64,000 nucleotides of DNA from positions 558,001 to 622,000 of the forward strand of contig NZ_QHJE01000001.1 of NCBI RefSeq assembly GCF_013626205.1, given 5' to 3'. The position numbers were made by a program, and so were the translations under genes. Under the pieces are notes generated by a model. The model was not told the origin of the DNA. It saw only the letters and a program-made list of their open reading frames with translations, and did not search any database. Of this stretch, positions 13,327-31,303 are shown one piece after another. Within the stretch, counting starts at the first letter, position 1, and each line of letters begins with the position of its first letter. The stretch is from Hyphomicrobium methylovorum. Its GTDB lineage: Bacteria > Pseudomonadota > Alphaproteobacteria > Rhizobiales > Hyphomicrobiaceae.

Positions 13327-13430
13327 TGTGCATCTCCTTTCCATTTGAAAAGGCGGCACAGCTCTTTTGGTTCCGAACAACGCTACGCGTTCAGCTCAAG
13401 CGGCGATAAACACTGGAATTCGCGGAGCGC

Positions 13431-14072: not shown

Positions 14073-14158
14073 TTGTCCGTCTCGCTTGCCGAGGAAGTGG
14101 CGAGAAAAGCGTTGCCTGTAACGCTATTTTTTCGCGCGCCTTGCCGAAAGACTCGCAC

Positions 14159-14225
14159 ACTTAAAACAAGAAAGCCGGCGCAGAAGAATTTGATCTTTGA
14201 AGGATCAAGGCTCCTGGCGCCGGCT
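14159..14225 (-). terminator. Terminator of dmoA
   Basis: On the minus strand a 9-bp outer stem (AGCCGGCGC / GCGCCGGCT) encloses an inner TTGATC/GATCAA hairpin and is followed by TTCTTGTTTT. It separates dmoA from the isochorismatase-like gene. Confidence 0.6.
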
Positions 14226-14265
14226 CCTCTAACGTTTGGCGTAGAGTTCACCAAACAGGCTTACA

Positions 14266-15705: not shown

Positions 15706-15953
15706 CGCGTTTCCTCGTTCTTTGCGCTGTCAAGGTTGTTGTCTTGCACCGTCAGTCTTCCGGTCAGGCTCGGATCCGTGGCTTTTTGAATGCCCGGTAC
15801 CCTTTGCCTGGATGCGTTCGCTCCTCATTCAATTGCCTTCGAAGCAGCCGCGGCCACCGGTTGGCCCACAGCCCGATCATCCGTGAAGTTCGTTGGGTGG
15901 GGATCGGCCGGCCCTCGCAACTTCCCGAACAATTGCATCTCAAATCCTGAACT

Positions 15954-15969
15954 TGTACCGACCGGTCCA
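15954..15969 (-). promoter_or_regulatory. Island TetR operator, dmoA side
   Basis: TGTACCGACCGGTCCA matches the near-palindrome TGKAYCG-NN-CGRTMCA at every position. Confidence 0.75.
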
Positions 15970-16254
15970 CATAATCAGGATTTTAGTGGGAAGCAAGCAA
16001 CAAACGTATCAATTGCAATCGAGTGAGCCTCCTCAGCTAACGACGCGCGTAAGAAACGAGACCGATTCGTTGATGCGTGAGCGCTCTAAATGCGTGCTGA
16101 GTTCAAATTTCTGCGCTCTCACTGCGAAATAATGGCTGCCGTGATGAAGAATTCGATTTGACTGTTGCCGATCCAGTTAGCCCGCTGACGAACAATTACT
16201 TTTCGGTTGTACGCCTCCTTGCGAATAGCATCCAACCTTAAGCCCCTACAGTTA

Positions 16255-16270
16255 TGTACCGTCCGGTCGC
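16255..16270 (+). promoter_or_regulatory. Island TetR operator, porin distal
   Basis: TGTACCGTCCGGTCGC has a perfect left half and 5 of 7 matches in the right half. It lies exactly 30 bp from the next copy, about three helical turns, so dimers would bind the same DNA face. Confidence 0.65.
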
Positions 16271-16284
16271 TATTTTAATATGTT

Positions 16285-16300
16285 TGTACCGTTCGGTCGG
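16285..16300 (+). promoter_or_regulatory. Island TetR operator, porin proximal
   Basis: TGTACCGTTCGGTCGG lies 34 bp before the porin start, where it would overlap the promoter or the transcription start. The left half is perfect and the right half matches 5 of 7. Confidence 0.65.
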
Positions 16301-16334
16301 TTTGGTAGCTTGCATTATCGATTCGTGATGGGGA

Positions 16335-17615
16335 ATGATGGCACTACGAAAAAAGACAACAGCCGCCACGGCTGGAATTGTGTTGGCGGTTGGCGCACTG
16401 AGCGCTCTGCCGGCACAGGCGGCCGATTTGGGCGGCAACTGCTGCGCGGATCTCGAAGAGAGAATTGCGGAGCTCGAGGCAACGACGGCCCGGAAAGGAA
16501 ACCGCAAGGTTTCGCTTACGGTTTCGGGATGGGTTGCGCAGCAAATCGTGAATTGGGACGACGGTGTTGAATCCAACACGTATCTCACCGGCCTCGGCAC
16601 GGCATTCGCGAGCAACGTCAACTTTACCGGACGCGCACAGATCACCAACGATGTGAGCGCTGGTTACGTCTTGCACATCGAATTGATCGACAGCGACGTC
16701 TATTCGACGAATGCGAATAGAGCGAACGGACCCGGCGTTACCGGAAGCCCGAACTCCGCTCAGGTCCACTACTCGTACTGGTTCCTGAAGAGCAACACGT
16801 ACGGCCAAGTCAGCGTCGGCAAGCAATCGCAGGCGGACGATAACGTTGTCGTCTCGCTCGATAGTTCTGGAACGCTGGCTGCTGCGTACTGGGTTGGCTA
16901 CGACGTCTTCGGCTTTAACGTTCGCGGCAACTTCGCACCCGGCCAGTCGATGATCTGGGGCAACGCATCTTCGTGCCGTGGCTGGGGCGGTGGTCCGGGC
17001 GACTGCGACGGTCTTCCCCGAAACGTCGTCCGTTACGATACGCCCGCAATTGCTGGATTTTCTGGCGCGGTATCTTGGGGCGAAGACGACGAGTGGTCTG
17101 TCCTCGGCCGTTACTCCGGCAACATCGGCGATGTGAAAGTTGCCTTGGCGGCCTCGTATGGCGAAACGAACGATCCGAACCTGGGCGCTACCTTCGGCGG
17201 CAAGCTGAAGTACACCCAGGCTGGCATCTACCTGCAGCATATGCCGACCGGAATATTCGGCACTGCCGGATATGGTCACCTGACCGAGACGGCCAATCTG
17301 ATGAATAACCCGGATACCGATACCTGGTATTTCAAGGGCGGTGTCCGGCTTAAGATGACGCCTATCGGCGCTACAATTCCTTACGGCGAATATCTTGGTG
17401 CCAATAACAGCGCCATGATCAACGATAGCATCACCGATACATCGCAGGTGGTGGAAGGCTCTAGCACGACCTGGTGGGGTGTTGGCGTCGTCCAGGAAAT
17501 CGATGCTGCGGCGATGTCCGTATGGCTCCGTTACCGCGATCACTCGGTCGATGTTCCCGGTGTCGATACCAAGGACATGTCTACGATCGTAGCCGGCGCA
17601 ATGATCAGTTTCTGA
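16335..17615 (+). CDS. Alphaproteobacterial outer-membrane porin (Porin_2 family)
   Basis: The 426-residue porin has a signal peptide (about 1-30, ending PAQAADLGG). A short coiled-coil (DLEERIAELEATTARKGNRK) is followed by SLTVSGWVAQQIVNW, the hallmark start of rhizobial-type porins, then a 16-strand barrel ending in Phe. Two adjacent ATG codons (16335 and 16338) are possible starts after GGGGA. It is divergent from dmoA and carries two copies of the island operator in its promoter. It probably provides outer-membrane entry for small sulfur compounds or generally during growth on them (inference). Confidence 0.88.
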   Translation: MMALRKKTTAATAGIVLAVGALSALPAQAADLGGNCCADLEERIAELEATTARKGNRKVSLTVSGWVAQQIVNWDDGVESNTYLTGLGTAFASNVNFTGRAQITNDVSAGYVLHIELIDSDVYSTNANRANGPGVTGSPNSAQVHYSYWFLKSNTYGQVSVGKQSQADDNVVVSLDSSGTLAAAYWVGYDVFGFNVRGNFAPGQSMIWGNASSCRGWGGGPGDCDGLPRNVVRYDTPAIAGFSGAVSWGEDDEWSVLGRYSGNIGDVKVALAASYGETNDPNLGATFGGKLKYTQAGIYLQHMPTGIFGTAGYGHLTETANLMNNPDTDTWYFKGGVRLKMTPIGATIPYGEYLGANNSAMINDSITDTSQVVEGSSTTWWGVGVVQEIDAAAMSVWLRYRDHSVDVPGVDTKDMSTIVAGAMISF

Positions 17616-17653
17616 CCTGCCCAGAAACTTCGAAAAACCTCTCCCTAGACTAC

Positions 17654-17685
17654 GTCCGGAGCCTCACGGCTTCGGACTTTTTTTT
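17654..17685 (+). terminator. Rho-independent terminator of the porin gene
   Basis: GTCCGGAGCC, loop TCAC, GGCTTCGGAC, then eight T. One mismatch lies in the stem. Confidence 0.9.
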
Positions 17686-17814
17686 AGGAATTGTGCGTAC
17701 GAAACCGCCAGGAACGACAGCGCTTAGAATTCTGCAAAGAAGGCGAAATTCAACACTGAAGACATTCACCAGATGGCAGATTGCGCTTGCGTCTGGAGGA
17801 TTTTCAAATAATGA

Positions 17815-17830
17815 TGGACCGATCGATACA
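17815..17830 (+). promoter_or_regulatory. Island TetR operator before the FMN reductase-sfnG operon
   Basis: TGGACCGATCGATACA fits TGKAYCG-NN-CGRTMCA at every position and lies 48 bp before the reductase start codon. Confidence 0.78.
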
Positions 17831-17878
17831 AACAATGAGCCAGTCATTTGGTTCGATAGAAACTGCAGGAAACGTTCG

Positions 17879-18433
17879 ATGCTAACGGTGGTGAAAATCA
17901 ACGGTAGTCCCACGCAGCCCTCGAAGACGGGGATCCTGGTTGACGCTGTTGCTGACGCGATCGCGAAGGTGACTCCCGTCGAGAATTTCTCGATCGCGTT
18001 GTCGAACGTTGGGCCGGAATTCATGTGCGGCCTCACCCGCCCGGACATCAGCGCAAAGGGCGAAGAGCTTCTACGCCTCGCTGAAAGTGCGGATATCTTG
18101 ATTATCGGAACGCCCGTCTATCGGGCAGCGTACACCGGTATTCTCAAACACTTCTTCGATCTGGTTGATCGTGACGCCATGCGCGATCGCAAAGCGGTGC
18201 TGTGCGCGACCGGCGGCACCCCGCTGCATGGTTTGGTTATCGAGCATCAGCTTCGTCCGCTTATGGGATTCTTTGCGATCCAAACGGCGACGACCGGCCT
18301 CTACGGTCTCAGCGAAGATTTCGCTAACGGCGCAATCTCCAGCTCAGCGCTGCAAAGCCGCGTCGATCGTGCTGCGCGCGAAGCTGTCACTCTTGTCGAT
18401 CATTCTAAAGCAATTCCGGAACTGGTACAGTAA
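17879..18433 (+). CDS. NAD(P)H-dependent FMN reductase, MsuE/SsuE family
   Basis: The 184-residue flavodoxin-fold reductase has KINGSPTQPSKT near the N-terminus (phosphate loop), IIGTPVYRAAYTGILKHFFD (about 80-100) and CATGGTPLHG. Length equals that of MsuE/SsuE. It should supply FMNH2 to SfnG, encoded 54 bases downstream, and possibly to DmoA. The start at 17879 has AGGA upstream. A longer open frame begins inside the porin terminator region and is not credible. A TetR-type operator precedes it. Confidence 0.83.
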   Translation: MLTVVKINGSPTQPSKTGILVDAVADAIAKVTPVENFSIALSNVGPEFMCGLTRPDISAKGEELLRLAESADILIIGTPVYRAAYTGILKHFFDLVDRDAMRDRKAVLCATGGTPLHGLVIEHQLRPLMGFFAIQTATTGLYGLSEDFANGAISSSALQSRVDRAAREAVTLVDHSKAIPELVQ

Positions 18434-18487
18434 GCCGGCTTTCGCTGGTTTGGTGTCATTCGTCCACACCGAAAGGTATTTTTTGGG

Positions 18488-19603
18488 ATGGGCCCAAAGA
18501 CCATAAGTCCGATGAAGTTCGCGCATTGGGTTCCCAATGTCAGCGGTGGCCTCGTCGTCAGTAAAATTCCTCAGCGTACCGACTGGGGACTGCAGTATAA
18601 TATCAAGCTGGCGAAGATCGCGGAATCCGTCGGCTTCGAATATGCGCTTACCCAAATCCGATTCATGGGAAGCTACGGCGCCGAGTATCAGCACGACTCT
18701 TTGATATTCTCGACCGCCCTCCTCGCTCATACCGAGTCGATCAACATCGTGACCGGCATTCTGCCAGGGATGTTTCATCCCGGCGTGATCGCGAAGCATG
18801 CCGCAACAGCCGATCAGATTTTCAACGGTCGGTGGGCGATCAATGTCGTGAGCGGTTGGTATCGCCGGGAATACGACGTGTTGGGCGTGCCGTGGCTCGA
18901 GCATGACGAGCGCTACGTTCGCTCGCAGGAATTCATCGAAATTCTGCGCGGCGCCTGGAGCGAGGACGACTTTTCCTACGCTGGAAAATACTGGCAGATT
19001 GACGGTTACACACTGAAGCCGAAGCCGTTGGTAATTCCAGGTCGGCCGATGCCTGAGATTTTCCAAGGCGGAAATTCTGCTGCCGCGCAACGGATGGCTG
19101 CATCGGTTTCCGATTGGTATTTCATGAACGGCAATTCGCTGGCCGGCTTCAAAGAGCAGATCACCAACGTTAGTAAGCTTGCAGCCGCCAAAGGGCGGAC
19201 TGTGAAGTTTATCGCCAATGCTTTCGTGATTGCCCGCGAGACTGAAGCCGAAGCGAAGTCCGAACTCGACCGCATCGTACATAGTGCCGATACCGAGGCC
19301 GTCGAAAACTTCCGCGTTGCCGTGAAAGAAGCCGGGCAAGCGACGAAGGACGGCAAGGGCATGTGGGCGAAATCCACAAGCCGCGATCTGGTTCAATACA
19401 ACGACGGCTTTAAGACAAATCTGATCGGCACGCCGGAGCAGATTGCGGAACGCATTTATGAAATGCAGAAAATCGGCGTAGATGCCGTGCTCTGCGGGTT
19501 TCTACACTTTCACGACGAGACTCGTTTCTTCGGCGAGCGCGTCATTCCACTCGTGCGCGAATTGGAAGCCGCGAATTCGGTGAAGAAGACTGCGACTGGA
19601 TAA
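18488..19603 (+). CDS. sfnG: FMNH2-dependent dimethylsulfone monooxygenase
   Basis: This 371-residue luciferase-like monooxygenase closely follows Pseudomonas SfnG: FAHWVPNVSGGLVVSKI, EYALTQIRFMGSYGAE, ADQIFNGRWAINVVSGWYR, DWYFMNGNS and LVQYNDGFKTNLIGTPEQI. SfnG converts dimethylsulfone to methanesulfinate (and formaldehyde). The start could also be the ATG at 18512, just before the conserved block; AAAGG favours 18488. It directly follows the MsuE-like reductase, the usual partner. Its presence suggests dimethylsulfone is used as a sulfur or carbon source together with DMS. Confidence 0.88.
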   Translation: MGPKTISPMKFAHWVPNVSGGLVVSKIPQRTDWGLQYNIKLAKIAESVGFEYALTQIRFMGSYGAEYQHDSLIFSTALLAHTESINIVTGILPGMFHPGVIAKHAATADQIFNGRWAINVVSGWYRREYDVLGVPWLEHDERYVRSQEFIEILRGAWSEDDFSYAGKYWQIDGYTLKPKPLVIPGRPMPEIFQGGNSAAAQRMAASVSDWYFMNGNSLAGFKEQITNVSKLAAAKGRTVKFIANAFVIARETEAEAKSELDRIVHSADTEAVENFRVAVKEAGQATKDGKGMWAKSTSRDLVQYNDGFKTNLIGTPEQIAERIYEMQKIGVDAVLCGFLHFHDETRFFGERVIPLVRELEAANSVKKTATG

Positions 19604-19656
19604 GCTTAGAAGCGGCCCAATCGACGCCTTGTGTAATATGGGCAAGGAAACAAGTA

Positions 19657-20784
19657 ATGAACGTCATGTTCACCAACCACGATGCGGATGACGGTCCTTC
19701 TGCCGATATAAGTTCGGCCGAAGAGATAATTGAAGAAGCGCGCTCCGGCCGGTGTTTTATTCTGGTGGATGACGAAGGCCGCGAGAACGAGGGGGATATT
19801 GTTATCCCTGCTCAGTTTGCGACCGCAGACATCATCAACTTCATGGCCCGTCACGCACGCGGGTTGATCTGCTTGGCGCTAACGCCCCAACGCGTCTCTC
19901 ATCTCAAGCTGAGCGCGATGGCACAGAGCGCGCAGGGTGGTTTCCAAACTGCCTTTACGTTGTCGATTGAAGCGCGCACAGGCGTAACGACCGGCATTTC
20001 CGCGGGTGATCGCGCGCGAACGATTGCGGTCGCAATCAATCCGGAAAGCACCTCGAACGACATTGTCACTCCGGGGCACATTTTCCCGCTGATCTCGCGT
20101 GAAGGCGGCACGCTGGTCCGGGCCGGACATACTGAAGCCGCTGTGGACGTATCCCGCATTGCGGGCCTCAATCCTTCCGGCGTGATCTGCGAGGTCATGA
20201 ATGACGATGGATCGATGGCGCGGCTGCCGGATCTTTTGCGGTTCGCCTATCGCCATCAAATCAAGCTCGGCACGATCGCTGACCTGATCGCGTATCGGCT
20301 TCGGCACGAGCGGCTCGTCACTGCGGTTGCAACGTCTGGGATTCATCATCCGAGCTTTGGCGAGTGGGAGCTCGTCATCTATCGCGATACCGTCGATGGC
20401 TCGGAGCACGCTGTGCTCGTAAAAGGCAACATCACTGAAGAGCCCGGACCTATTCCGGTCTGTCTGCACCGCTCCGATCTGATCAGCGACGTTGTTCTTG
20501 CGCGCGACGGCGAAGGCGTGAGCAGCGCGATGTTTAAAATCATGAAGCGCGGCCGAGGCGTAATCGTTCTGCTGAACGATGGGCGTCGCGGTGCGCTTTC
20601 GGAACGCGTGCGCAACTGCAGCCCGCACTCCCGGCCCGGCACTCAACTTCGCGAATATGGAATTGGCGCGCAGATCCTGGTCGATCTCGGCGTCACCGAA
20701 ATGGTTATGCTGGCCAATCGCGAACAAACGCTCGTTGGCATCGAAGGATACGGACTGACGGTGACCGGCCAAGAGACCTTGTGA
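19657..20784 (+). CDS. ribBA: 3,4-dihydroxy-2-butanone 4-phosphate synthase with degenerate GTP cyclohydrolase II domain
   Basis: The N-terminal RibB domain (about 15-215) is intact. [10 protein letters not shown] binds metal and substrate, and [10 protein letters not shown] and GHTEAAVD are present. It makes the four-carbon precursor of riboflavin from ribulose 5-phosphate. The C-terminal domain (216-375) keeps the RibA fold end ([23 protein letters not shown]). It has lost the zinc cysteines (C-x10-C-x-C replaced, e.g. [12 protein letters not shown]) and the HEGRGIGL motif (LNDGRRGAL), so it cannot be a normal cyclohydrolase. A stand-alone RibA at 24527 supplies that activity. AAGGAA lies 7 bases before the start, 53 bases after sfnG. 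Confidence 0.87.
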
Positions 20785-20842
20785 ATTCGCCGTAGTCATT
20801 CGGCCAAGCAATCAAGATAGAATAGTGAGAGAGACGATAGCT

Positions 20843-21370
20843 ATGCAGATGGGATCAATTCGTTCGGGCGGCGGGGCATCGAACGAAGCCGCAACTGGAG
20901 TTGATGCAGGCGCTTTCCGTGGCGTGATGCGGCAGCTTGCGGGATGTGTGACCGTTATTTCGACGGAAGAGGAAGGCACGCTTTACGGCTTCACCGCCAC
21001 CGCGGTTTGCAGCGTGTGCGCCGAGCCACCGACAATTCTCATCGCCGTGAACAAGACCGCCCGCACTCACCCGCACATCGACCGCAAGGGTGCGTACGCC
21101 GTCAACATTCTGGCTGATGGTCAAAAGCACATTGCTGAGCACTTTGCAGGAAAGGGCGACGATCAGTTCGCTACCGTTGAATATGCTTTAGGCGCTCATG
21201 GCGTGCCCTTGATCAATGGCGCGGCCGCCCATCTCGAATGTGAAATTACCCAGAGAATTGAGATCGGCACCCATACGCTTTTCGTTGGTCACGTGATCGG
21301 CACGGGCGTGGATGCCGTCAAGCCACTGATCTATCATGACGCAAAGTATGGCCTGATTTCTCACCTTTAA
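20843..21370 (+). CDS. Flavin reductase-like domain protein (candidate DmoB-type reductase)
   Basis: The 175-residue protein belongs to the flavin_reduct family (HpaC, RutF, NtaB-like): FRGVMRQLAGCVTVIST near residue 27, YGFTATAVCSVCAEPPTILIAVNK, and AYAVNILADGQ, ending YHDAKYGLISHL. It should reduce FMN with NAD(P)H. NtaB-like reductases are the known partners of NtaA-type oxygenases, so this is the best candidate for the small component of the DmoA system, although dmoA lies elsewhere in the cluster. A GTG start at 20825 is also possible. Confidence 0.78.
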   Translation: MQMGSIRSGGGASNEAATGVDAGAFRGVMRQLAGCVTVISTEEEGTLYGFTATAVCSVCAEPPTILIAVNKTARTHPHIDRKGAYAVNILADGQKHIAEHFAGKGDDQFATVEYALGAHGVPLINGAAAHLECEITQRIEIGTHTLFVGHVIGTGVDAVKPLIYHDAKYGLISHL

Positions 21371-21379
21371 CGAACCGTG

Positions 21380-21446
21380 CGGACGCAGCATCCGCTTCGC
21401 GTCCGTAAAAATATTGAAGCGATACGCCTTTAGAACGTCGCTTCAA
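21380..21446 (+). other. Two hairpins between the flavin reductase and ribF genes
   Basis: CGGACGC/GCGTCCG (21380-21405) and a perfect TTGAAGCG/CGCTTCAA (21414-21446, followed by TTTC) lie in the 118-base gap before ribF. They may attenuate or stabilise the transcript. The sequence does not match the FMN riboswitch. Confidence 0.4.
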
Positions 21447-21488
21447 TTTCCGATATAACGACCGGCAACCGTCATTCGATCGTCACTC

Positions 21489-22511
21489 ATGTTCTGGACG
21501 TTGCAGACATTATCCGATTTTCCGGACCGCCTGCGGGGCGCATACGTCGTTGTTGGAAACTTCGACGGCGTTCATCGCGGGCACCGAGACCTTCTGCAGC
21601 GCGCCTCCAAGTTTGCCGAGATCGACGATCGATTCCTTGTAGCGCTGACGTTCGATCCGCATCCGCGATCCGTTCTCACGCCTCGCGCACCATTTCTTCA
21701 GCTCACGAGCCATGAAGAGAAATGCCGTCTGTTGAAAGAGGCGGGCGTGGATGATGTCGTTACGCTCTCCTTCGATGCCGAGCTTGCTTCGCTCTGGCCG
21801 TCGGCATTCGTCGAACTGGTTCTGGCCGAACATATGGCCGCCAAGGCGATAGTTGCGGGCCAGAATTTTTGCTTCGGTTTGAATAGAGCGGGATCGATTG
21901 CCGAGCTTGCTCAAGTCGCGCCTGACGCGGGCCTCTCGGTCCACATCGTTCCTCCTTTGTGTTCGATGGATGGCGGCGAGATCATCACGTCGGAACTCAT
22001 CAGGTCGCGGCTAACTGTTGGTGACATAAAAGGCGCCAATCATCTTCTCGGCCGGCGGTGGACGATCGAAGGTGAGGTTGTGCACGGAGATAAGCGCGGA
22101 CGGCAGCTCGGTTTTCCGACGGCCAACCTCGCGCCAAATCACAATGCCCAGTTCGGCTTTGGCATCTATGCCGTGCGCGTTCTCTTGAATGGCGAGATCT
22201 TGAACGGCGTTGCCTGCTACGGCACACGCCCGCAATTCGATGACGGCGCGCCGCGAATCGAAGTCCATATTCTGGATTTCGCTGGCGACATTTACGGCGA
22301 GAGACTGCTGGTCGAGTTCGTTGCCTTCCAGCGTTCCGAACGGACGTTCTCCGGTGTCGAGGCGCTGATGCAGCAGATCGATCAGGATTGCCTGATGACG
22401 CGTCGTCTTCTCAGCGCCGACCCGGAGGTCGATAGCGTCTTGAAGCGGCGTGCAGGCACCTTTGCCAGTACGGCAGCAGGCGCGCGCGGGCAGTCGGCCA
22501 TAACTCTCTAA
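21489..22511 (+). CDS. ribF: Bifunctional riboflavin kinase / FAD synthetase
   Basis: The 340-residue enzyme has an N-terminal adenylyltransferase domain (VVGNFDGVHRGHRDLL, LTFDPHP, GQNFCFG, ITSELIRSRL) and a C-terminal kinase domain (GRQLGFPTANL, YGIY-like FGIYAVRV, YGTRPQF, LVEF). It phosphorylates riboflavin to FMN and adenylates FMN to FAD. Full length for the family. RibF is usually elsewhere with lspA/ileS; here it lies among the sulfur monooxygenase genes, so it is probably an additional or relocated copy that boosts FMN supply (inference). Confidence 0.92.
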   Translation: MFWTLQTLSDFPDRLRGAYVVVGNFDGVHRGHRDLLQRASKFAEIDDRFLVALTFDPHPRSVLTPRAPFLQLTSHEEKCRLLKEAGVDDVVTLSFDAELASLWPSAFVELVLAEHMAAKAIVAGQNFCFGLNRAGSIAELAQVAPDAGLSVHIVPPLCSMDGGEIITSELIRSRLTVGDIKGANHLLGRRWTIEGEVVHGDKRGRQLGFPTANLAPNHNAQFGFGIYAVRVLLNGEILNGVACYGTRPQFDDGAPRIEVHILDFAGDIYGERLLVEFVAFQRSERTFSGVEALMQQIDQDCLMTRRLLSADPEVDSVLKRRAGTFASTAAGARGQSAITL

Positions 22512-22572
22512 CATCGGCGTCTGCGAAATGCGTTTCCCCGGCATCGAAATGGATATCGCCGTGGACTTTTAT

Positions 22573-22588
22573 TGTACCGCCTGATACA
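22573..22588 (+). promoter_or_regulatory. Island TetR operator before soxC
   Basis: TGTACCGCCTGATACA matches TGKAYCG-NN-CGRTMCA at all but one position and lies 40 bp before the preferred soxC start. Confidence 0.6.
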
Positions 22589-22627
22589 TACAAATAAATG
22601 AATTCGCCGTTCTGTAGAGAGGTCCGG

Positions 22628-23968
22628 GTGTCGAACGATCGAGACAGCGAGCCAACGATTTCATCCAACGTCGAGGAGGATTGCCCGTGTCGCGACGGCA
22701 TGAAGCCTCATGTCGAACTCAGTCGGCGTGGCTTGCTCATGTCCGCCGTCGCCGCCTCTGCATCGGGCGTGATGAGCGCAACCGCGATGGCCGCTGACAA
22801 GACGAAAGCGCCCCCAGGCGCCGCTCTTTATGACGTGCCGGACGATCCGACAAAAGTGATGGGCCGCGGCGTTCATGAGGACGGCGGTTACGGCACGCGT
22901 TCTCAATTCGAGACGGAGGTTCGCGAAAAAGAAGACAGGCCGCTTGACGCTACGTCGTGGACCTACACGCCTCTCGCGGCGACGATCGGCAATCTAACGC
23001 CATCGGGATTGCACTTCGAACGCCATCACGGCGGCATTCCGACGATCGATCCGTCGCGTCACGATCTGTATCTCCACGGCCTCGTAGACGTTGCGAAGAA
23101 GTTCACGATGGCGGACATCAAAAGTCTGCCGTCGATTACGCGCCGCTACTTCATCGAATGCTCGGGCAACACGCTTTTCGAATGGCAAAAGCCTACAGGC
23201 AAAAACGTTCAATTCACGCACGGCCTGCTGAGCACTTCGGAGTGGACGGGCGTACCGTTTGCTGCGCTGGCGCGGCAGGTCGGACTGAAGGAAAACGCGG
23301 CTTGGGTTCTGGCCGAAGGCGCTGATGCTGCCGTGATGACACGCAGCATTCCTCTCGACAAACTGATGAGCGACGCGCTGATCGCGTATGGGCAGAACGG
23401 CGAAGCGTTGCGGCCAGAGCAAGGCTATCCGCTTCGCTTGATCCTGCCAGGCTACGAAGGCAACACGCAGATCAAATGGCTCCGCCGCCTGCAGGTGAGC
23501 AATCGCCCGTTCCAAACGCATGAAGAGACTGCGGCGTATACCGATCTCATGAAAGACGGTCGCTCCAAGCAGTTCACACTGCAGATGGATCCAAAATCGG
23601 TCATCACGTTCCCGTCCGGCGAAATGATGCTGCCGAAGGCTGGGTTCTATTTGATCTCGGGGATCGCTTGGACGGGGCGCGGCCGTGTCAACGCCGTCGA
23701 CATCTCGCTCGATGGTGGGAAGTCCTGGGCACCGGCGCGTCTCGATACCGTCCCCGAGCCCAATTGTACGGTTCGCTTCAGCTATCCTTGGCACTGGGAT
23801 GGGAAGCCTGCGGTGCTGCAAAGCCGGTGCATCGACGACGCGGGCAACGTTCAGCCCACGCGTACGGATCTCATCAAGGTGCGCGGCTTGCATTCTGTCT
23901 ATCACTATAACGCCATTCAAAGCTGGGCCGTTGCGGCAGACGGCAGTGTGTCAAATGTCCATGTTTAA
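22628..23968 (+). CDS. soxC: Sulfane/sulfite dehydrogenase molybdopterin subunit SoxC
   Basis: This is a periplasmic molybdenum enzyme of the sulfite oxidase family, about 446 residues. A Tat-like leader (LSRRGLLMSAVAASASG) is followed by the molybdopterin domain with the Mo-ligating Cys in FIECSGN, then GLHFERHHGGIPTIDP, HGLLSTSEWTGVP and LPGYEGNTQIKWLRR. The C-terminal dimerisation domain is typical of SoxC. GTG 22628 is preferred because GAGAGG precedes it; ATG 22598 is the alternative. The stop overlaps soxD by 14 bases. No other sox genes (XYZAB) lie in the window. It may oxidise sulfite or sulfane sulfur derived from methanethiol. Confidence 0.87.
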   Translation: MSNDRDSEPTISSNVEEDCPCRDGMKPHVELSRRGLLMSAVAASASGVMSATAMAADKTKAPPGAALYDVPDDPTKVMGRGVHEDGGYGTRSQFETEVREKEDRPLDATSWTYTPLAATIGNLTPSGLHFERHHGGIPTIDPSRHDLYLHGLVDVAKKFTMADIKSLPSITRRYFIECSGNTLFEWQKPTGKNVQFTHGLLSTSEWTGVPFAALARQVGLKENAAWVLAEGADAAVMTRSIPLDKLMSDALIAYGQNGEALRPEQGYPLRLILPGYEGNTQIKWLRRLQVSNRPFQTHEETAAYTDLMKDGRSKQFTLQMDPKSVITFPSGEMMLPKAGFYLISGIAWTGRGRVNAVDISLDGGKSWAPARLDTVPEPNCTVRFSYPWHWDGKPAVLQSRCIDDAGNVQPTRTDLIKVRGLHSVYHYNAIQSWAVAADGSVSNVHV

Positions 23969-24530
23969 GTCTCTCTGCGCCGTCATATTGCTTGGTATCG
24001 CGCCGATGAGTGCGCAAGCGGATCCAACAGGGATAGACGTCGGCACACCCATGAGCGCCGATGACCTGAACGCGTTCTTTGCCATTGAGGTCGATGGAAC
24101 GGGGCTGCCGCACGGAAAAGGCACCGCGGCAACCGGCAAAGAGATCTATGCCGAACGCTGCGCGCACTGCCACGGCGAGAATCTGGAAGGCTCGAAGGAG
24201 CTTGGCGGACCGCGGCTTATCGGCGGGCGCGGAAGTTTGACGACGGACAAACCTCTCAAGACTGTTGAGAGCTACTGGCCGCACGTCTCGACTCTTTACG
24301 ATTACATGTGGCGCACCATGCCGTTCGATCAACCCGGATCGCTTTCGCCGGACGATGTCTATGCGCTGGCAGCGTACATTCTCTCTGCTGGAAAGATCAT
24401 CGACGACAAGACGGAAATGAACGAGAAGACGCTTCCGAAAGTCGTCATGCCCAATGCCAACGCATTTTTCGACGCCTCGGGGACTACGATCGATCTCTAT
24501 AACGTGCAGCCGGTCGCTCCGAAAAAATGA
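23955..24530 (+). CDS. soxD: Cytochrome c subunit SoxD of sulfane dehydrogenase
   Basis: The 191-residue exported cytochrome has a signal peptide (about 1-22, ending SAQA), a c-type heme motif CAHCH (near residue 67), and an axial Met region around WRTMPFDQPGSLSPDDVYALAAYIL. It takes electrons from SoxC. It is shorter than diheme SoxD proteins (about 380 residues) and carries one heme, like the short SoxD/SorB-like forms. It starts inside the end of soxC, and its stop overlaps ribA (ATGA). Confidence 0.85.
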   Translation: MSMFKSLCAVILLGIAPMSAQADPTGIDVGTPMSADDLNAFFAIEVDGTGLPHGKGTAATGKEIYAERCAHCHGENLEGSKELGGPRLIGGRGSLTTDKPLKTVESYWPHVSTLYDYMWRTMPFDQPGSLSPDDVYALAAYILSAGKIIDDKTEMNEKTLPKVVMPNANAFFDASGTTIDLYNVQPVAPKK

Positions 24531-25150
24531 GCGCTTCGCGTGAGTTTGCGTCGGAAGCTTTGCAGCATGCTGCAACCTCGCTACCGATCGAACTGGGCGG
24601 CAAGACCGTCATGCTGGACGCTCACGCCTACAGCGATGGCGTCGACCAGCTTGTTGTTCTCCTCCATCGCGCCGCGGATATTTGCAGCGACCATATTCCG
24701 ATCGTTCGTATCCATTCAGGATGTGTGACGGGCGATATATTTCATTCGTTGCGATGCGACTGCCGACAGCAGCTACAGGCGGCGCTGCAGACGATTTGTG
24801 ATTGCCCGTATGGCGCGCTCGTTTATTTGCCCTATCACGAGGGGCGCGGCATTGGTCTCTTCAGAAAACTAAAGACCTATGCTCTTCAGGATTGTGGGCT
24901 CGACACCATCGAAGCCAATCTCGCGATCGGCGCGCCGGTTGATGCGCGCGATTTCACTCTGGCGAGCCGCGCGCTGGCAGACCTCGGCATGAGAGACGTG
25001 CGGCTCTTGACGAACAATCCGCTCAAAGAGACGGCGCTTTCCGGTCTCGGAATCCGTGTCGTGGAGCGCGTTCCGCTCAGGGTACTGGCTAACCCTCACA
25101 ACGAGCGGTATCTGGAAACGAAGCGGCTGCGCATGGCGCACGACTGCTGA
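24527..25150 (+). CDS. ribA: GTP cyclohydrolase II
   Basis: The 207-residue enzyme opens GTP as the first committed step of riboflavin synthesis. The zinc site is intact (SGCVTGDIFHSLRCDC, Cys-x10-Cys-x-Cys), as are YHEGRGIGLFRKLKTYALQDCGLDTIEAN and RLLTNNPLK. The segment that usually reads DYGIGAQIL is DFTLASRAL here, a family variation. It complements the degenerate RibA half of the ribBA product 4 kb upstream. Translational coupling to soxD is striking for a vitamin gene and ties flavin supply to the sulfur operon. It converges on the tetR gene. Confidence 0.9.
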   Translation: MSASREFASEALQHAATSLPIELGGKTVMLDAHAYSDGVDQLVVLLHRAADICSDHIPIVRIHSGCVTGDIFHSLRCDCRQQLQAALQTICDCPYGALVYLPYHEGRGIGLFRKLKTYALQDCGLDTIEANLAIGAPVDARDFTLASRALADLGMRDVRLLTNNPLKETALSGLGIRVVERVPLRVLANPHNERYLETKRLRMAHDC

Positions 25151-25178
25151 CTATGTCGGCGCCAGGCGGCGCACATTC

Positions 25179-25772
25179 CTACGGCGCGGAGCGGTCGGTG
25201 GCTTCGGCGGCGGCCAAGGCCATGTCGGCGAAGATGTCGGCGATCTCGCGCGATGATCTTCTTCCCGACGGCTTGAGCCAAAGGAAGCTGTAGAAATACA
25301 TGCCAAGCATGCCCTTGATCGCAACCGTCGGCAGCGGCCGGAACAGACCTTTCTTCTCGCCTTCGCGGAAGGTGTTCATCCAGATATCCTGGTAGGCCTG
25401 ATGCAGGTCGGAAACGATGCGGTGCCTCTGGCCCGTCAAGCAATCCGCTTCGCGGAAGCAGACTGTCATCTCTGGTAAATTGGCAAATATGGTCGCCATC
25501 AGCTTGCGACTAAGAAGGTAAATCCGCTTCCTCGGGTCGGGCTCAGATTCGAGCGAGTCCCGGCCTGCAGCCACCAAGTCTTCGATGTATCGAACGACGA
25601 TGCTGAACAGCAGATCTTCCTTGCTGCTGATGTGATAGTACAGCGCGCCGCGACCGAGACCGACCGCTTCACCAATCTCCGCAACGCCGACCGCGCGATA
25701 CCCTCTCGTCGCGAACAGATCGGCGGCAATTTTTTGAATCCGCTCAAATTGCGGACCGCCCGACACAGCCAT
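25179..25772 (-). CDS. TetR-family regulator of the organosulfur island
   Basis: The 197-residue TetR/AcrR protein has the HTH IQKIAADLFATRGYRAVGVAEIGEAVGLGRGALYYHISSKEDLLF (positions about 9-53, core GRGALYYHISSKEDL). The C-terminal domain resembles the TetR_C group of the fatty acid / aromatic regulators. The start at 25772 leaves an operator copy (25803-25818) 31 bp upstream; the longer frame from 25901 would run through that operator and is rejected. Because the same 16-bp site precedes dmoA, porin, FMN reductase, soxC and a membrane protein, I infer this protein is the local regulator. Its ligand is unknown. Confidence 0.85.
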   Translation of the reverse strand: MAVSGGPQFERIQKIAADLFATRGYRAVGVAEIGEAVGLGRGALYYHISSKEDLLFSIVVRYIEDLVAAGRDSLESEPDPRKRIYLLSRKLMATIFANLPEMTVCFREADCLTGQRHRIVSDLHQAYQDIWMNTFREGEKKGLFRPLPTVAIKGMLGMYFYSFLWLKPSGRRSSREIADIFADMALAAAEATDRSAP

Positions 25773-25802
25773 CTTGGAACCCGCGTTAGACCATTCTGTG
25801 TG

Positions 25803-25818
25803 TGGACTAGTCGGTACA
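25803..25818 (-). promoter_or_regulatory. Island TetR operator, autoregulatory
   Basis: TGGACTAGTCGGTACA has a perfect CGGTACA half and a left half with two changes. It lies 31 bp upstream of the tetR start codon. Confidence 0.65.
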
Positions 25819-25900
25819 CCAGTGCTATGTGTCAAGGAAGATCGTTTCCGCCCGGCCTGGGACGAGATCTTCACATCTGAACGTGACAATGAAGCCTCCA

Positions 25901-26081
25901 AGATTAGTCAGAAGTCGAATTTGAATCGCCTCCAGACACCGGTGATAACAGCACATATTTGGAAGTTGGGCGACCCCTAGAATATGCTGCAAGATTCATC
26001 GGAAGTCGATTTGAATCGACCCCGGGAAGTCGTGATAACGGTACATAAATAGAAGCTGGCCGACCCCAAAATATATGCCGC
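25901..26081. repeat. Two tandem imperfect 90-bp direct repeats
   Basis: Copy A spans 25901-25990 and copy B 25992-26081. Both begin AGATT, share AAGTCGA-TTTGAATCG, GTGATAAC, ACATA, GAAG and GCCGACCCC-like blocks, and end ATATGC(T/C)GC. They fill most of the 428-base tetR-maoC gap and have no credible ORF. Copy B contains CGGTACA, one half of the island operator. Function unknown; a duplicated regulatory region is possible. Confidence 0.75.
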
Positions 26082-26200
26082 ATTAACACCCTTTGGGACG
26101 TGCGGAAATGGCAAGGAAAGTCCGTCGCGTTGAGTTTCCTGGAACCATATTCGTCGAACGCCCTGCCGGATAAATTCCGTGGGTTCATTGGAGCCATACT

Positions 26201-26680
26201 TTGAGCACGAAACTATCTTCGATCTGGGACCAAACGCTCAAAGGAAAACCGGAAGTCGGAGCGCGGGCGCGCCGGTCACGCGTGACGTCGCAGGATGATA
26301 TCGCCAGATTTTCGGAAATGACCGGCGATTTTAATCCACTGCATTATGACGCTCAATTGGCCGAAGCATCTGTGTTTGGACGCCTCATCGTTCAGGGCGG
26401 TGTAACGTCGGGACTTCTCAATGCAATTGTCGCAGAGGATTTGCCAGGGCCCGGCACCGTATTCCTCGGTGTGAATTGGCGGTTTTTACGTGCTGTCGGC
26501 GTGAATGAGGAAATTACGGCCGAGGTCGAAGTCATCTCCGTTCGCGACGACAAACCAATTTGCGAATTAGCGACCACGATATATGCGCAAGACGGGCAGC
26601 CGTGCCTTTCGGGAACGGCGACGGTCTATGTCACGCCGCTGCGAAATCTCGCGTCATCCCCACAGAAAGCTTCGAATTGA
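26201..26680 (+). CDS. MaoC-like (R)-specific enoyl-CoA hydratase family protein
   Basis: The 159-residue hot-dog-fold protein carries the hydratase-2 motif FSEMTGDFNPLHYD (about 43-56), with the catalytic Asp and His, and the FGRLIVQGGVTSGLL segment. The family hydrates 2-enoyl-CoAs or related thioesters. The start is TTG with GGAG spaced 7 bases. An MFS gene follows 8 bases later, so they form an operon. Its place in sulfur metabolism is unclear. Confidence 0.8.
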   Translation: MSTKLSSIWDQTLKGKPEVGARARRSRVTSQDDIARFSEMTGDFNPLHYDAQLAEASVFGRLIVQGGVTSGLLNAIVAEDLPGPGTVFLGVNWRFLRAVGVNEEITAEVEVISVRDDKPICELATTIYAQDGQPCLSGTATVYVTPLRNLASSPQKASN

Positions 26681-26688
26681 GGAGCGAT

Positions 26689-27927
26689 ATGACGGCCTCT
26701 TCCCAGCCCGTTGCGCAACACGCCAGCGGATCTCGATGGTTCACGCTCGCAATTCTATGCTTGGCGATCGTGCTGTCGATGACGACGTGGTTTTCGGCAA
26801 CCGCAATCGTACCCGAACTTCGCAATGTCTGGTCGCTCGATGACGGCACCGTCGCTTGGCTCACGAACGCCGTCCAGATTGGATTTGTTGTAGGAGCGCT
26901 CGGCGCGAGCTTCTTCAATCTTCCCGACATCGTGGCCCCGCGCATTCTGATGTCTGCATCCGCGGCACTTGCGGCTGCCGCCAATCTTGCTCTGCTCGTT
27001 GCTCCGACGGCAGAGACAGCCATTGCCCTGCGCTTCATCACAGGGCTAGCACTTGCGGGAGTTTATCCGCCCGCACTGAAACTCATTTCCACATGGTTTG
27101 TGCAGGCTCGCGGCTTGGCGCTCGGCTGCGTGATTGCGGCTTTAACACTGGGCTCGGCCTTTCCGCATTTGCTACGCGCGCTTACGAACGATTTGAACTG
27201 GAAGATCGTCGTTAGCTCGACGTCGGCCATGACGGTGGTCGGCGCACTGCTGATGGCTCGATTTGCAGTTGAAGGCCCGCATCCGTTTGGCCGGGCGACA
27301 TTCGATCCGCGCAAGATCGGACAGGTGCTTCGCGACCGTGCCGTGATGCTCGCGAACGTCGGCTATTTTGGTCACATGTGGGAGCTCTACGCGATGTGGG
27401 GCTGGTTCCTCGCGTTTACGCAAGCCACGTTGCACGCTCGGGGATTGATGACACCGAGCGCGTCGATCATCACGTTCGTTGTCATCGCATCGGGGACCGT
27501 CGGATGCGTCCTCGGTGGCTTTATGGCCGACCGCATCGGACGCACCGCGACGACGTCCATCATGATGACGATTTCTGGCTTGTGCGCGCTTCTGATCGGC
27601 TTCGCGTTCAACGCGCCACTTTGGGTTTTCATTCTGGTCTCCATTATCTGGGGAATTTCAGTAATTGGAGATTCCGCGCAGTTCGCTGCGATCGTGACGG
27701 AGGTTGGCGAGTCGCAATTCGTCGGCACCGCGCTGGCGCTTCAGTTGGGCCTGGGATTTGCGCTGACGGTTATTGCGATCCGCGTGATGCCGATCCTCGT
27801 CGACTACCTAGGCGGATGGCAATGGGCCTTCATCGTGCTCGTTCCCGGACCCTTCATAGGGACGTTGGCGATGCTGGCGCTGCGACGGCTGCCGCAGGCC
27901 GTGAAGATTAGCGGCGGTCTGAAGTAG
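26689..27927 (+). CDS. MFS transporter
   Basis: The 412-residue product has 12 predicted transmembrane helices. GAGGAG precedes ATG 26689, which matches the first helix; the longer frame overlapping maoC is not credible. It resembles the CynX/nitrate-sulfonate type MFS proteins (FSATAIVPELRNVWSLDDGTVAWLTNAVQIGFVVGA). The substrate is unknown; a small anion or organosulfur compound would suit the surroundings (inference). Confidence 0.83.
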   Translation: MTASSQPVAQHASGSRWFTLAILCLAIVLSMTTWFSATAIVPELRNVWSLDDGTVAWLTNAVQIGFVVGALGASFFNLPDIVAPRILMSASAALAAAANLALLVAPTAETAIALRFITGLALAGVYPPALKLISTWFVQARGLALGCVIAALTLGSAFPHLLRALTNDLNWKIVVSSTSAMTVVGALLMARFAVEGPHPFGRATFDPRKIGQVLRDRAVMLANVGYFGHMWELYAMWGWFLAFTQATLHARGLMTPSASIITFVVIASGTVGCVLGGFMADRIGRTATTSIMMTISGLCALLIGFAFNAPLWVFILVSIIWGISVIGDSAQFAAIVTEVGESQFVGTALALQLGLGFALTVIAIRVMPILVDYLGGWQWAFIVLVPGPFIGTLAMLALRRLPQAVKISGGLK

Positions 27928-28516
27928 GACCGTCGCGCGGTCGCGCCTACTGGTGGCGACTCCGCCGTCAAAGCTATTGTTTGAGTCTGTAATCGACGTA
28001 TGGGCGGCGGCATAGTTTGCCGTCTGCGTTTGCTGCTCTGAGCAGATACTGCGGCCGAACGATATTTGTATTTTAGTCCGCATACAGATATTTACTGTGC
28101 AGCTTCCGAAAAACTAACACACACCCACAAATTTGACGCGCAGCGCGTGTGACTGCGCTTGCGATGTGATGAGCGTCTCGTTGCGGAGTTTCACAATCTA
28201 TCACCGACACATCTCCGAACCTGTGTTGACTTTTTGTTTTAGCGTATAGAGTATGGACCGGTCGATACATAAAAATGACCAATCGACTCTTAGGAAACGC
28301 CAATGCTCAGCCATATTGAGAAAGCCGTACCGGCCTAGAGGGACGTCCAAAGTCACTTTGATGAGACGACAGCAATCGGCGGCGGGTCACCCGCGCCGAC
28401 GGATTGCGTGCGCCCTCGTGAAGAGACCTGGAACGCGGACGGCAAGACCGATCCATTCCCCGACGGCACAGCAATCCCAGCGCTCAGCATAAGAAAACAA
28501 TCAAAGGAGGATGACG
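27928..28516. other. Long leader region with promoter and TetR operator
   Basis: The 589-base gap has no credible gene. It contains GC-rich inverted repeats just after the MFS stop, a TTGACT element at 28226-28231 and the operator at 28254. About 250 bases of leader precede the membrane-protein gene. Confidence 0.55.
28254..28269 (+). promoter_or_regulatory. Island TetR operator before the unknown membrane protein
   Basis: TGGACCGGTCGATACA fits the consensus at every position. TTGACT (28226-28231) lies just upstream, so the operator would cover the -10/+1 region of that promoter. Confidence 0.75.
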
Positions 28517-29587
28517 ATGTCGGTAACAACGCCAACGGCGGAAATAGCGCCGTTTCGGTTGAATGAGGGCGTCCGGGGGTTCTTGTGGATCTACGGTCTG
28601 TCGATTGTGTCGTGCTATCTCGTAAACCTTTGGGTGATCGCAAATCCCATCGGTCCGTGGGTTGGCGACGACATCCAAAAATCATTCTGGCTCGACAACG
28701 TCAGCTGGCAGATTTTCTCCGCATGGTGGGCGTGCCTGTTCGTTGTTAGCGGCTTCTGGCCGTTCAACGGCATCGAAAACACAACCGTTCGCGGTATAGT
28801 TCTTGTCGCCGTCTCATGGTTTCTCGGATGGTGGAGCGCGAAGCTCATCTTCCTTGTCGGCCCCGGAGCCGACGGCATCTTTCCGCTGGTCGGCACCACG
28901 TGGTTTCTTTTTGCTTTCTTCTGCTTCGCCGGAAACAACTTCCTCGTAGCGAAGCTGCCGCCTCACCGTCAGGTTTACATCCACCTGCTGGTATTTGCGG
29001 GCCTCACGTATCTCATCACGCATTCGGCCATTAAGTGGGTTCCGGCGTGGTGGTTCCCATTCCTGCTCCTCGGACTTGGCACAGGAACGCTCACATACCT
29101 CACCCGGGGTTTGGCACAGCCGGCGCGCGCCGTCGTTATGATGTCGATCCTGTTCGCGACGGCCGCTCTCTGCTTCCAGATTTCAGCGCTCGCCGGGCTT
29201 TGGGAATTCGATAAGTCGCCCATTTCGTCGTTCTGGTCGATGGGCCATTTCACAGACGGCAATTTCTGGCTGCTCTGCTTCATGACGGCGACATCGATCA
29301 ACTACGCGATGCCGGTCATCACGCACAACTGGCCGTTCACGATGATCGCGATGCCGTGGGGCGGCTTGCTTGCCTGCGCGTTCTATCTGGTGCTGGACGT
29401 GGTTGTCGCGAGCTTGCTGGTGAAGCTGGTCGGACCGGTCTTCTCGAGCATGGAGGAACTGCTGACCTACGCCTACATGGGCGTGAACTGGTCGATGATC
29501 ATCCCGCTCGTGTTCGGAATTGGCTTGCAAGAACCCTATCTCTGGACCGGTCAGAAAACGCCGGGCCAATGGGGTGACGTAGCTTGA
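28517..29587 (+). CDS. Polytopic membrane protein of unknown function, TetR-operator controlled
   Basis: The product is about 356 residues with roughly nine or ten hydrophobic helices very rich in Trp and Phe (SWQIFSAWWACLFVVSGFWPF, AIKWVPAWWFPFLLLG, FWSMGHFTDGNFWLLCF). AAAGGAGG ends at 28510, so the ATG at 28517 with spacing 6 is favoured over the ATG at 28511. I do not recognise the family. Several His, Asp and Trp residues lie in or near helices (MGHFTDGNFW, MPVITHNWPF), which could suggest a channel, permease or membrane-bound enzyme. It has its own perfect operator, so it is a core member of the island. Confidence 0.7.
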   Translation: MSVTTPTAEIAPFRLNEGVRGFLWIYGLSIVSCYLVNLWVIANPIGPWVGDDIQKSFWLDNVSWQIFSAWWACLFVVSGFWPFNGIENTTVRGIVLVAVSWFLGWWSAKLIFLVGPGADGIFPLVGTTWFLFAFFCFAGNNFLVAKLPPHRQVYIHLLVFAGLTYLITHSAIKWVPAWWFPFLLLGLGTGTLTYLTRGLAQPARAVVMMSILFATAALCFQISALAGLWEFDKSPISSFWSMGHFTDGNFWLLCFMTATSINYAMPVITHNWPFTMIAMPWGGLLACAFYLVLDVVVASLLVKLVGPVFSSMEELLTYAYMGVNWSMIIPLVFGIGLQEPYLWTGQKTPGQWGDVA

Positions 29588-29613
29588 GGTGTCCTCCTCT
29601 CAAGCTCTCGTGA

Positions 29614-29656
29614 GGATGCCCGGCGGATCGAGCCCATCGCCGGGCATCCTTCTTCT
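29614..29656 (+). terminator. Terminator of the membrane-protein gene
   Basis: An 11-bp perfect stem (GGATGCCCGGC / GCCGGGCATCC) is followed by TTCTTCT. Confidence 0.75.
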
Positions 29657-29748
29657 ATCTGCGATCACTTCCGCAAATTCGTTCGCGCCGCAGACGCGAT
29701 GTCGACAACCGCCGCGCAATCAAGCGCTGCTCATTGGAGTTTGTACGA

Positions 29749-30054
29749 ATGGAAACTGTTGCTGGTGTTATTCCCTTCAAAGCCAAAGTCGGACAGGGCG
29801 AGACGGTGGCGCGTCTCATCGCTGCCGCTCTGCCTCACGTTGAGAACGAGCCCGGGACACCGCTTTGGTTGGTTCTCCGCTCGAATACCGATCCGGATAT
29901 GATCTTCCTGGTCGACCTCTTCAGCGGAACGGCTGGTCGCGATGCTCATATGACGGGCGAAGCGGCAAAGCTCATTTTCGCAACAGTGCCGCCGTATCTC
30001 GAAGCCGCGCCTGAAATTCATCCCGCCGACGTCATCGCTTCCAAAGGCCGGTGA
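29749..30054 (+). CDS. Antibiotic-biosynthesis-monooxygenase (ABM) domain protein
   Basis: The 101-residue ferredoxin-like fold protein resembles YgiN/ABM quinol monooxygenases (FKAKVGQGETVARLIAAAL, FLVDLFSGTAGRDAHMTGEAAKLI). GGAG lies 9 bases before ATG 29749. Such proteins act as cofactor-free oxygenases or stress proteins; the exact role is unknown. A terminator separates it from the island, and it converges on a LysR gene. Confidence 0.72.
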   Translation: METVAGVIPFKAKVGQGETVARLIAAALPHVENEPGTPLWLVLRSNTDPDMIFLVDLFSGTAGRDAHMTGEAAKLIFATVPPYLEAAPEIHPADVIASKGR

Positions 30055-30214
30055 CGCAGCGCCGAAGCGCAACTGTCGAATGACTTCCTGGTCGTACGTT
30101 CGGGCCGTGGGGCGTGCAAATCCCGCGGCCTGAATTTTCGTGAAGTGCGCTGGCTCAATCCCCGGCTCTGCTGTTGACGAAGTCAGCGCGAAGCTCGACG
30201 CGCACGGCACATTC

Positions 30215-31287: not shown

Positions 31288-31303
31288 ATTATCAGTCGGT
31301 ACA
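31288..31303 (-). promoter_or_regulatory. Possible half-conserved copy of the island operator
   Basis: ATTATCAGTCGGTACA has a perfect CGGTACA half and 4 of 7 matches in the other half. It lies between the lysR and serine hydrolase genes. Confidence 0.3.

Follow-up and report, generated by a model that had tools for sequence, protein, structure and literature searches.

Dimethylsulfide (DMS) is a gas of relevance to climate. The purified DMS monooxygenase reportedly comes from Hyphomicrobium sulfonivorans. In Pseudomonas, sfnFG are under the control of SfnR, a sigma54 activator. TetR repressors are described for the acrylate and dimethylsulfoniopropionate (DMSP)-to-DMS operon of Rhodobacter sphaeroides, where the operator of AcuR overlaps the promoter (PMC3017554), and for Pantoea ananatis, where AltR answers plant thiosulfinates, is autoregulated and has several operators within a single gene cluster (PMC13178969). 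The dsz biodesulfurization operon, which encodes flavin monooxygenases, is likewise under TetR control (PMC6534649). In Hyphomicrobium denitrificans, sHdrR and SoxR are sulfur-responsive repressors of the ArsR type, and according to a 2025 study, thiosulfate elicits a response of the genes for MtoX and a putative DMS monooxygenase, which belong to neither regulon (PMC12423496). TTHB023/PfmR of Thermus thermophilus HB8 has a 16-bp palindromic operator, (a/c)Y(g/t)A(A/C)YGryCR(g/t)T(c/a)R(g/t), which also stands before its own gene, and the dissociation constant for the consensus is 2 nM (PMC7022988). Here we analyse 64,000 nucleotides of Hyphomicrobium methylovorum (contig NZ_QHJE01000001.1, positions 558,001 to 622,000; the whole stretch is hereafter called the window), which contain an island of genes for DMS and dimethylsulfone catabolism, among them dmoA and sfnG. 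A 16-bp palindrome with the consensus TGKAYCGNNCGRTMCA recurs in this island and is very probably bound by the TetR-family repressor encoded there.

Seven copies lie in the window at the positions given in a preliminary description (15954, 16255, 16285, 17815, 22573, 25803 and 28254), all of which were correct. The three copies named there as perfect, at 15954, 17815 and 28254, indeed match TGKAYCGNNCGRTMCA with 0 mismatches each; by coordinate, the mismatches of the seven are 0, 2, 2, 0, 1, 2 and 0. The copies are as follows.

15954..15969, minus strand: O1, perfect; reads TGGACCGGTCGGTACA towards dmoA, 248 bp upstream of this gene
16255..16270, plus strand: O2a, weaker with 2 mismatches; upstream of the porin gene
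16285..16300, plus strand: O2b, weaker with 2 mismatches; upstream of the porin gene, 30 bp from O2a
17815..17830, plus strand: O3, perfect; upstream of FMN reductase-sfnG-ribBA-flavin reductase-ribF
22573..22588, plus strand: O4, 1 mismatch; upstream of soxC
25803..25818, minus strand: O5, 2 mismatches; reads TGTACCGACTAGTCCA towards tetR, 30 bp upstream of its ATG (earlier counted as 31 bp)
28254..28269, plus strand: O6, perfect; upstream of the membrane protein gene mem28

The claim that coding DNA is free of copies holds at up to one mismatch and fails at up to two, where matches lie at 25752 within tetR and at 10034 within the open reading frame (ORF) 9548-12145.

A genome-wide scan with the consensus, as proposed earlier, was run over 3,445,405 bases with the reversed pattern as control. 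Perfect matches occur at three places, all in the island (control: 0); they are thus confined to it and are not at background frequency. At up to one mismatch there are eight places (control: 3), four of them in the island and all intergenic, and the other four all within long ORFs. A refined pattern, TGKACCGNNYRRTMSN, matches ten distinct places in the genome, namely the seven window copies and three others.

One scan of a genome collection yielded 45 loci that encode relatives of the TetR protein (27-90% identical). The island is largely conserved in Hyphomicrobium (H. facile, H. zavarzinii, H. sulfonivorans S1, strain D-2 and metagenome-assembled genomes) and in Microvirga massiliensis, and in all these islands the operator stands upstream of tetR. 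In H. sulfonivorans S1, whose dmoA is 81% identical, it is upstream of the same operons as in the window. It precedes FMN reductase-sfnG and dmoA wherever these are present in the island stretches examined or in locus L046, mem28 in all four relatives' islands that show this gene, and soxC in four. L052 and L053, in which soxC comes after dmoA, have no site with up to two mismatches directly upstream of soxC. In alignments, the operator together with a CTTGC element forms a conserved block amid otherwise diverged intergenic DNA; in the dmoA promoters the ribosome site is conserved too. Counting the window, O1 is kept in all seven aligned Hyphomicrobium dmoA leaders (L046 having a TATACCG variant) and O3 in 7/7 Hyphomicrobium promoters, while counterparts of O4, O5 and O6 are found in 5/5 aligned soxC, 9/9 tetR and 5/5 mem28 promoters. 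Three of the four porin-bearing relatives (L048, L051, L054) have a site with up to two mismatches directly upstream of the porin gene, and the fourth, L049, has a pair with three; O2a has 3-mismatch counterparts in L048 and L049. Throughout seven orthologous islands, whose DNA is 80.3% coding, all sites lie outside matched genes (22/22 at up to one mismatch, 29/29 at up to two). A motif-free count of dyads in the intergenic DNA of eight islands, compared with coding DNA, returned ACCG-N2-CGGT (9 copies in 6 segments) and TGTA-N8-TACA (7 copies in 7 segments), both absent from coding DNA.

In genome G011, the operators of dmoA, FMN reductase and soxC (L046 7798, 12110, 16889) all have their outer TG replaced by TA, a shared change that is parallel drift within one genome; the same change is seen in two sites of genome G223. 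The dmoA leader (15706-15953) is long, 248 bp in the window and, by coordinates, 182 in L052 and 343 in L066, and in the Hyphomicrobium alignment it is scarcely conserved apart from GAGGAAACG ahead of the start. An FMN riboswitch in this leader or before the rib genes was considered and rejected, as the Rfam search (12000-32000, E ≤ 1) returned only a suhB/mmgR small RNA match below the gathering threshold (17623-17692, 25.8 bits against 41), where a terminator-like hairpin and a T run lie downstream of the porin gene.

In these sequence comparisons, the operator tracks the TetR gene and not dmoA. Six of the 22 Hyphomicrobium genomes searched (own included) have a close TetR orthologue and contain 3, 3, 3, 3, 0 and 0 perfect operators, the two without being G004, an 84%-complete genome, and G011 with its TATACCG-variant sites; the 16 genomes of the genus without the orthologue have one perfect copy in total. 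A site with up to two mismatches lies within 300 bp upstream of the matched tetR start at 27 of the 45 loci; 40 shuffled palindromes put to the same test averaged 0.6 and reached 3 at most. All 45 loci together contain 49 sites with up to one mismatch, compared with 4 for the reversed pattern. The operator is also retained at many loci that encode a relative of the TetR and lack dmoA. Conversely, no site with up to one mismatch lies near, and none with up to two directly before, any of the six dmoA relatives that lack this TetR, namely a broken copy of 85-92% identity in genome G020 and five others of 50-52%. The broken dmoA of G020 (L109 10280-11393) consists of two overlapping frames; this genome has no close TetR and, within 20 kb around the broken gene, no operator with up to two mismatches, and the locus is probably a decayed island. 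Six loci added after the motif had been fixed contain eight sites with up to one mismatch, with 0 for the reversed control and a mean of 0.2 (maximum 2) for 20 shuffled palindromes. G223, which belongs to another family, has such sites upstream of genes for MFS, FMN reductase-sfnG and dmoA, and on the Rhodococcus plasmid pRJH2 two copies, one perfect and one with 1 mismatch, lie between an MFS gene and a divergent operon whose last two genes are tetR genes. These two (L126 7333-8549) stand in tandem and are both of this TetR kind. Locus L127 has only sites with two mismatches, none of them upstream of tetR.

The position of the operator within the promoters points to repression. CTTG lies 27-31 bp upstream of the operator in 17 of 21 promoters of dmoA, FMN reductase and mem28 from the window and eight Hyphomicrobium, Microvirga and Paracoccus loci; the exceptions are two Microvirga promoters, one of Paracoccus and the window mem28 promoter, which has TTGACT at 28 bp. 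All seven Hyphomicrobium FMN reductase promoters have CTTGC at exactly 29 bp, and O1 has CTTGCT 28 bp upstream. With a 17-bp spacer, this distance would place the -10 element just upstream of the operator, which itself would cover the transcription start, as suits a repressor. Taking the operator, its locality, its conservation and the promoter geometry as read from the sequence, we are confident of the following model, in which we infer binding, the sign of control, the operon limits and the inducer. The TetR protein (25179-25772) would bind as a dimer to the 16-bp palindrome TGKACCG-NN-YRRTMSN. In the promoters of dmoA, of FMN reductase-sfnG-ribBA-flavin reductase-ribF and of mem28, this site would follow directly after the -10 element, with CTTGC or TTGAC as the -35 element, and the bound repressor would cover the transcription start and block RNA polymerase. 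Further copies would serve the promoters of soxC-cytochrome c-ribA, porin and tetR, with O5 at tetR giving negative autoregulation. A metabolite from the use of DMS or dimethylsulfone would release the repressor and thereby switch on together two flavin monooxygenases, flavin reductases, a second set for flavin mononucleotide (FMN) synthesis, sulfite oxidation and the membrane protein.

The genes of the island are listed below.

25179..25772, minus strand: TetR-family regulator of 197 aa; Pfam TetR_N PF00440 5.6e-13, TetR_C_24 PF17932 3.5e-18
14266..15705, minus strand: dmoA, FMN-dependent dimethylsulfide monooxygenase-like; TIGR03860 NtaA/DmoA 546.6 bits, cut-off 279.7
16335..17615, plus strand: porin-like outer membrane protein, a name taken from the preliminary description; no Pfam match; orthologues in L048, L049, L051, L054
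17879..18433, plus strand: FMN reductase (MsuE-like); TIGR03566 183.1 bits, under the cut-off of 212.5
18488..19603, plus strand: sfnG, dimethylsulfone monooxygenase; TIGR04021 568.2 bits, cut-off 382.95
19657..20784, plus strand: ribBA-like, second genomic copy; TIGR00506 over cut-off, likewise at C1:3077596
20825..21370, plus strand: flavin reductase (RutF/HpaC-like); all matches under equivalog cut-offs
21489..22511, plus strand: ribF, second genomic copy; TIGR00083 over cut-off, likewise at C1:2351255
22628..23968, plus strand: soxC-like sulfite dehydrogenase; TIGR04555 530.9 bits, cut-off 420, scored on the longest ORF (from 22598)
23958..24530, plus strand: cytochrome c partner; Cytochrom_C on ORF 23685-24530, frame read from 23958
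24527..25150, plus strand: presumably a ribA-like protein; present in six orthologous islands
26201..26680, plus strand: MaoC-type hydratase; PF01575; cluster c2 in 22/45 loci
26560..27927, plus strand: MFS transporter; PF07690; longest ORF; cluster c1 in 23/45 loci
28511..29587, plus strand: membrane protein mem28; no Pfam or NCBIfam match

SfnG and the DmoA-family protein score over their cut-offs and the flavin reductases under the equivalog cut-offs, in keeping with an island for DMS and dimethylsulfone catabolism. The gaps between the genes from FMN reductase to ribF measure 40-118 bp, so O3 probably controls all five. Since ribBA-like and ribF are second copies, the regulon would supply the monooxygenases and their cofactor together, and 19657-22511 apparently is a dedicated FMN supply. 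For soxC, the conserved GTG at 22628 is more likely the start than the ATG at 22598; because this GTG lies 30 bp downstream of the ATG, a leaderless transcript, as for acuR, was thought unlikely. The coding part of the MFS gene probably begins at the ATG 26689. The MaoC-type hydratase neighbours this TetR in other genera also. Among 60 genomes searched (own included), mem28 occurs in exactly the five that have a full-length dmoA with 82% identity or more, and it is a candidate DMS or dimethylsulfone transporter. It is also present in Paracoccus sulfuroxidans L079.

Several observations weigh against the proposed regulon. At up to two mismatches the genome-wide scan is too noisy, with 130 places against 68 for the control, and we rejected it at this setting as proof of a regulon; since the consensus is unspecific there, O2a, O2b and O5 are not acceptable on the consensus by itself and are supported because they are conserved in relatives, in the tetR and porin promoters. 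The refined pattern was fitted post hoc to the seven copies; independent testing comes from the other genomes, where many of the 45 loci are close kin and the counts not independent. The six later loci show a small excess at up to two mismatches (19 against 11). As many as 18 of the 45 tetR loci have no site with up to two mismatches in the 300 bp before tetR, among them the dmoA-linked L058, L076, L079 and L084; in L076, L079 and L084 sites occur at other positions of the locus, and L058, from Pseudonocardia, has none in the stretch examined. In the motif-free count, the dyad GCGC-N14 is spread over a larger number of intergenic segments (8) but is equally common in coding DNA, several other dyads tie with ACCG-N2 at 6 segments, and with 5-base half-sites no dyad in the top list exceeds 2 copies. 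The tetR and soxC promoters lack the CTTG spacing, and this ambiguous geometry would leave room for a TetR protein that activates the island, or does both. Activation is nonetheless unlikely, as the operator lies just behind the predicted -10 element in the 17 of 21 promoters described above and most TetR proteins repress. The abundance of related words (130 places against 68) could also mean that a common CGATCG-rich word happens to recur here by chance, a notion with next to no probability: the perfect copies are limited to the island, and the motif is kept in intergenic DNA as isolated blocks conserved across species. This cross-species conservation, and also the genome-wide locality, refute it. 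The palindrome might instead serve another regulator, either another TetR or the gene product of 30215-31288, which we take to be LysR-like, with the neighbouring TetR as a bystander. In genome G040 (L106 1501-1516), the palindrome TGTACCGATCGGTACA lies between a presumably TetR-like gene unrelated to the window TetR and a small divergent gene; other TetR proteins probably use operators of this class too, and the sequence alone therefore cannot name the regulator. Still, the motif accompanies this TetR into genera with other neighbours, the six dmoA relatives without it have no site with up to one mismatch nearby, and the next best match of this TetR in its own genome has 25% identity, which makes a bystander very improbable. 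The local regulon of the TetR encoded at 25179-25772, first put forward in the preliminary description, is by far the best reading in view of the locality, the conservation of the island, the co-occurrence with tetR and the promoter geometry.

A different question is which signal releases the repressor. On Rhizobium, Shinella and Sulfitobacter plasmids, the TetR gene lies between an acetyl-CoA acetyltransferase gene and an acetoacetate-CoA ligase operon (CoA, coenzyme A) consisting of acetoacetate-CoA ligase, thiolase, an OB-fold or zinc-ribbon protein, MaoC and MFS; chromosomal relatives adjoin the same acetoacetate-CoA ligase/thiolase gene set, and distant relatives also a short-chain fatty acid transporter. 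Elsewhere the TetR gene is found near MaoC, an ABC solute-binding protein, a Gfo/Idh/MocA oxidoreductase and a UPF0261 protein (Devosia), or beside soxC and cytochrome c (five Pseudomonas loci). In the tree, the dmoA-linked TetRs stand in three places, two of them within well-supported groups, which may reflect one gain with losses instead of several gains. The regulator's broader family acts on acyl-CoA operons, which makes the assumption of an organosulfur inducer provisional. The pairing of TetR and operator could be right and the inducer an ancestral short-chain acyl-CoA or beta-keto acid type metabolite, with the sulfur genes of Hyphomicrobium placed under an older repressor of carbon metabolism; we consider this possible, if somewhat doubtful. 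It agrees with the neighbours of the distant relatives, with a thiolase of that set (cluster c10) in the dmoA-linked Methylonatrum locus L076, and with the MaoC and MFS neighbours retained in the DMS islands. The ligand-binding domain has TVCFRE (103-108, with Cys105), H124, Y127, W131, Y161, L164 and W165 invariant in 37/37 aligned TetRs (the window and 36 of the 45 loci) despite different neighbours, although these residues may be structural. The two well-supported DMS-linked groups have one residue pattern in common against a control mean of 1.4, and convergent residues of the ligand pocket were rejected, there being none beyond the control; either all relatives have a signal such as a CoA ester in common, or the difference is invisible at this depth. 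Relatives in the PDB include KstR2, whose effector is the CoA ester HIP-CoA (PMC8700777). Against an acyl-CoA inducer, the Hyphomicrobium and Microvirga islands and Paracoccus L079 and L084 have none of the acyl-CoA synthetase/thiolase clusters c5, c9 and c10 in the DNA examined. Rather tentatively, we speculate that one portable TetR-operator switch, found from Actinobacteria to Alpha-, Beta- and Gammaproteobacteria and answering an ancestral signal of the short acyl-CoA/acetoacetate type, was reused, in no fewer than two separate branches of the TetR, for islands whose flavin monooxygenases act on DMS and dimethylsulfone, the enzymes being co-induced with an FMN factory of their own. In that case it would be a CoA metabolite of central carbon metabolism that gates the consumption of DMS, and not, as with Pseudomonas SfnR, sulfur starvation.

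If the TetR protein binds the operator, the regulon would explain control of the DMS/dimethylsulfone part of the sulfur cycle, for which the titles and abstract openings of the best-matching open-access articles name no regulator of dmoA. With the protein, the exact sites and the conserved operator given, control of terrestrial DMS and dimethylsulfone consumption is directly testable. One regulator-operator pair would serve unrelated pathways across genera, and a biosensor for DMS or dimethylsulfone is conceivable if the ligand is an organosulfur compound.

A TetR_N helix-turn-helix, a helical ligand domain and a palindrome before its own gene mark the regulator, by sequence, as a member of the TetR family, with scores under the equivalog cut-offs of FadR (33.7 bits against 200), PsrA (23.4 against 300), FasR (48.9 against 330) and SACE_7040 (74.9 against 250). 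SfnR also controls sfnG and dimethylsulfone use; it belongs to another protein family and follows the opposite logic of an activator. The ArsR-family proteins sHdrR and SoxR differ from the window TetR in their sulfane-sulfur sensing cysteines and in their targets. The dsz regulator belongs to a dibenzothiophene pathway, and the article on it contains neither "palindrome" nor "inverted repeat" (PMC6534649). AltR has the operator CAATCTAC-N6-GTAGATTG in a tolerance cluster and not in catabolism. AcuR is likewise a TetR repressor with its operator over the promoter of a DMS-related operon. The AcuR operator, however, is TAATAGAC-n6-GTCTATTA and its system makes DMS, whereas the window island consumes it; an identity with AcuR was rejected on the N6-spaced TAATAGAC operator and on a score of 19.7 bits against a cut-off of 247. 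PDB entry 3vpr, which we take to be PfmR/TTHB023, is the second best PDB sequence match to our TetR (E 3.2e-20). This distant alignment and the neighbouring DMS genes speak against a PfmR orthologue. The preliminary description had named no comparable published operator for DMS or dimethylsulfone catabolism, and no TetR operator for dmoA or sfnG appears among the titles and abstract openings of the best-matching open-access articles; the class of the operator, however, is known from PfmR (PMC7022988). Like that of PfmR, the window operator is a 16-bp palindrome with an ACCG-NN-CGGT-like core; the outer bases differ, and in place of fatty-acid and phenylacetate genes it neighbours DMS genes. 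Being of the PfmR class, the switch is of an ordinary type, and what is new and so far undescribed is its dmoA/sfnG target set.

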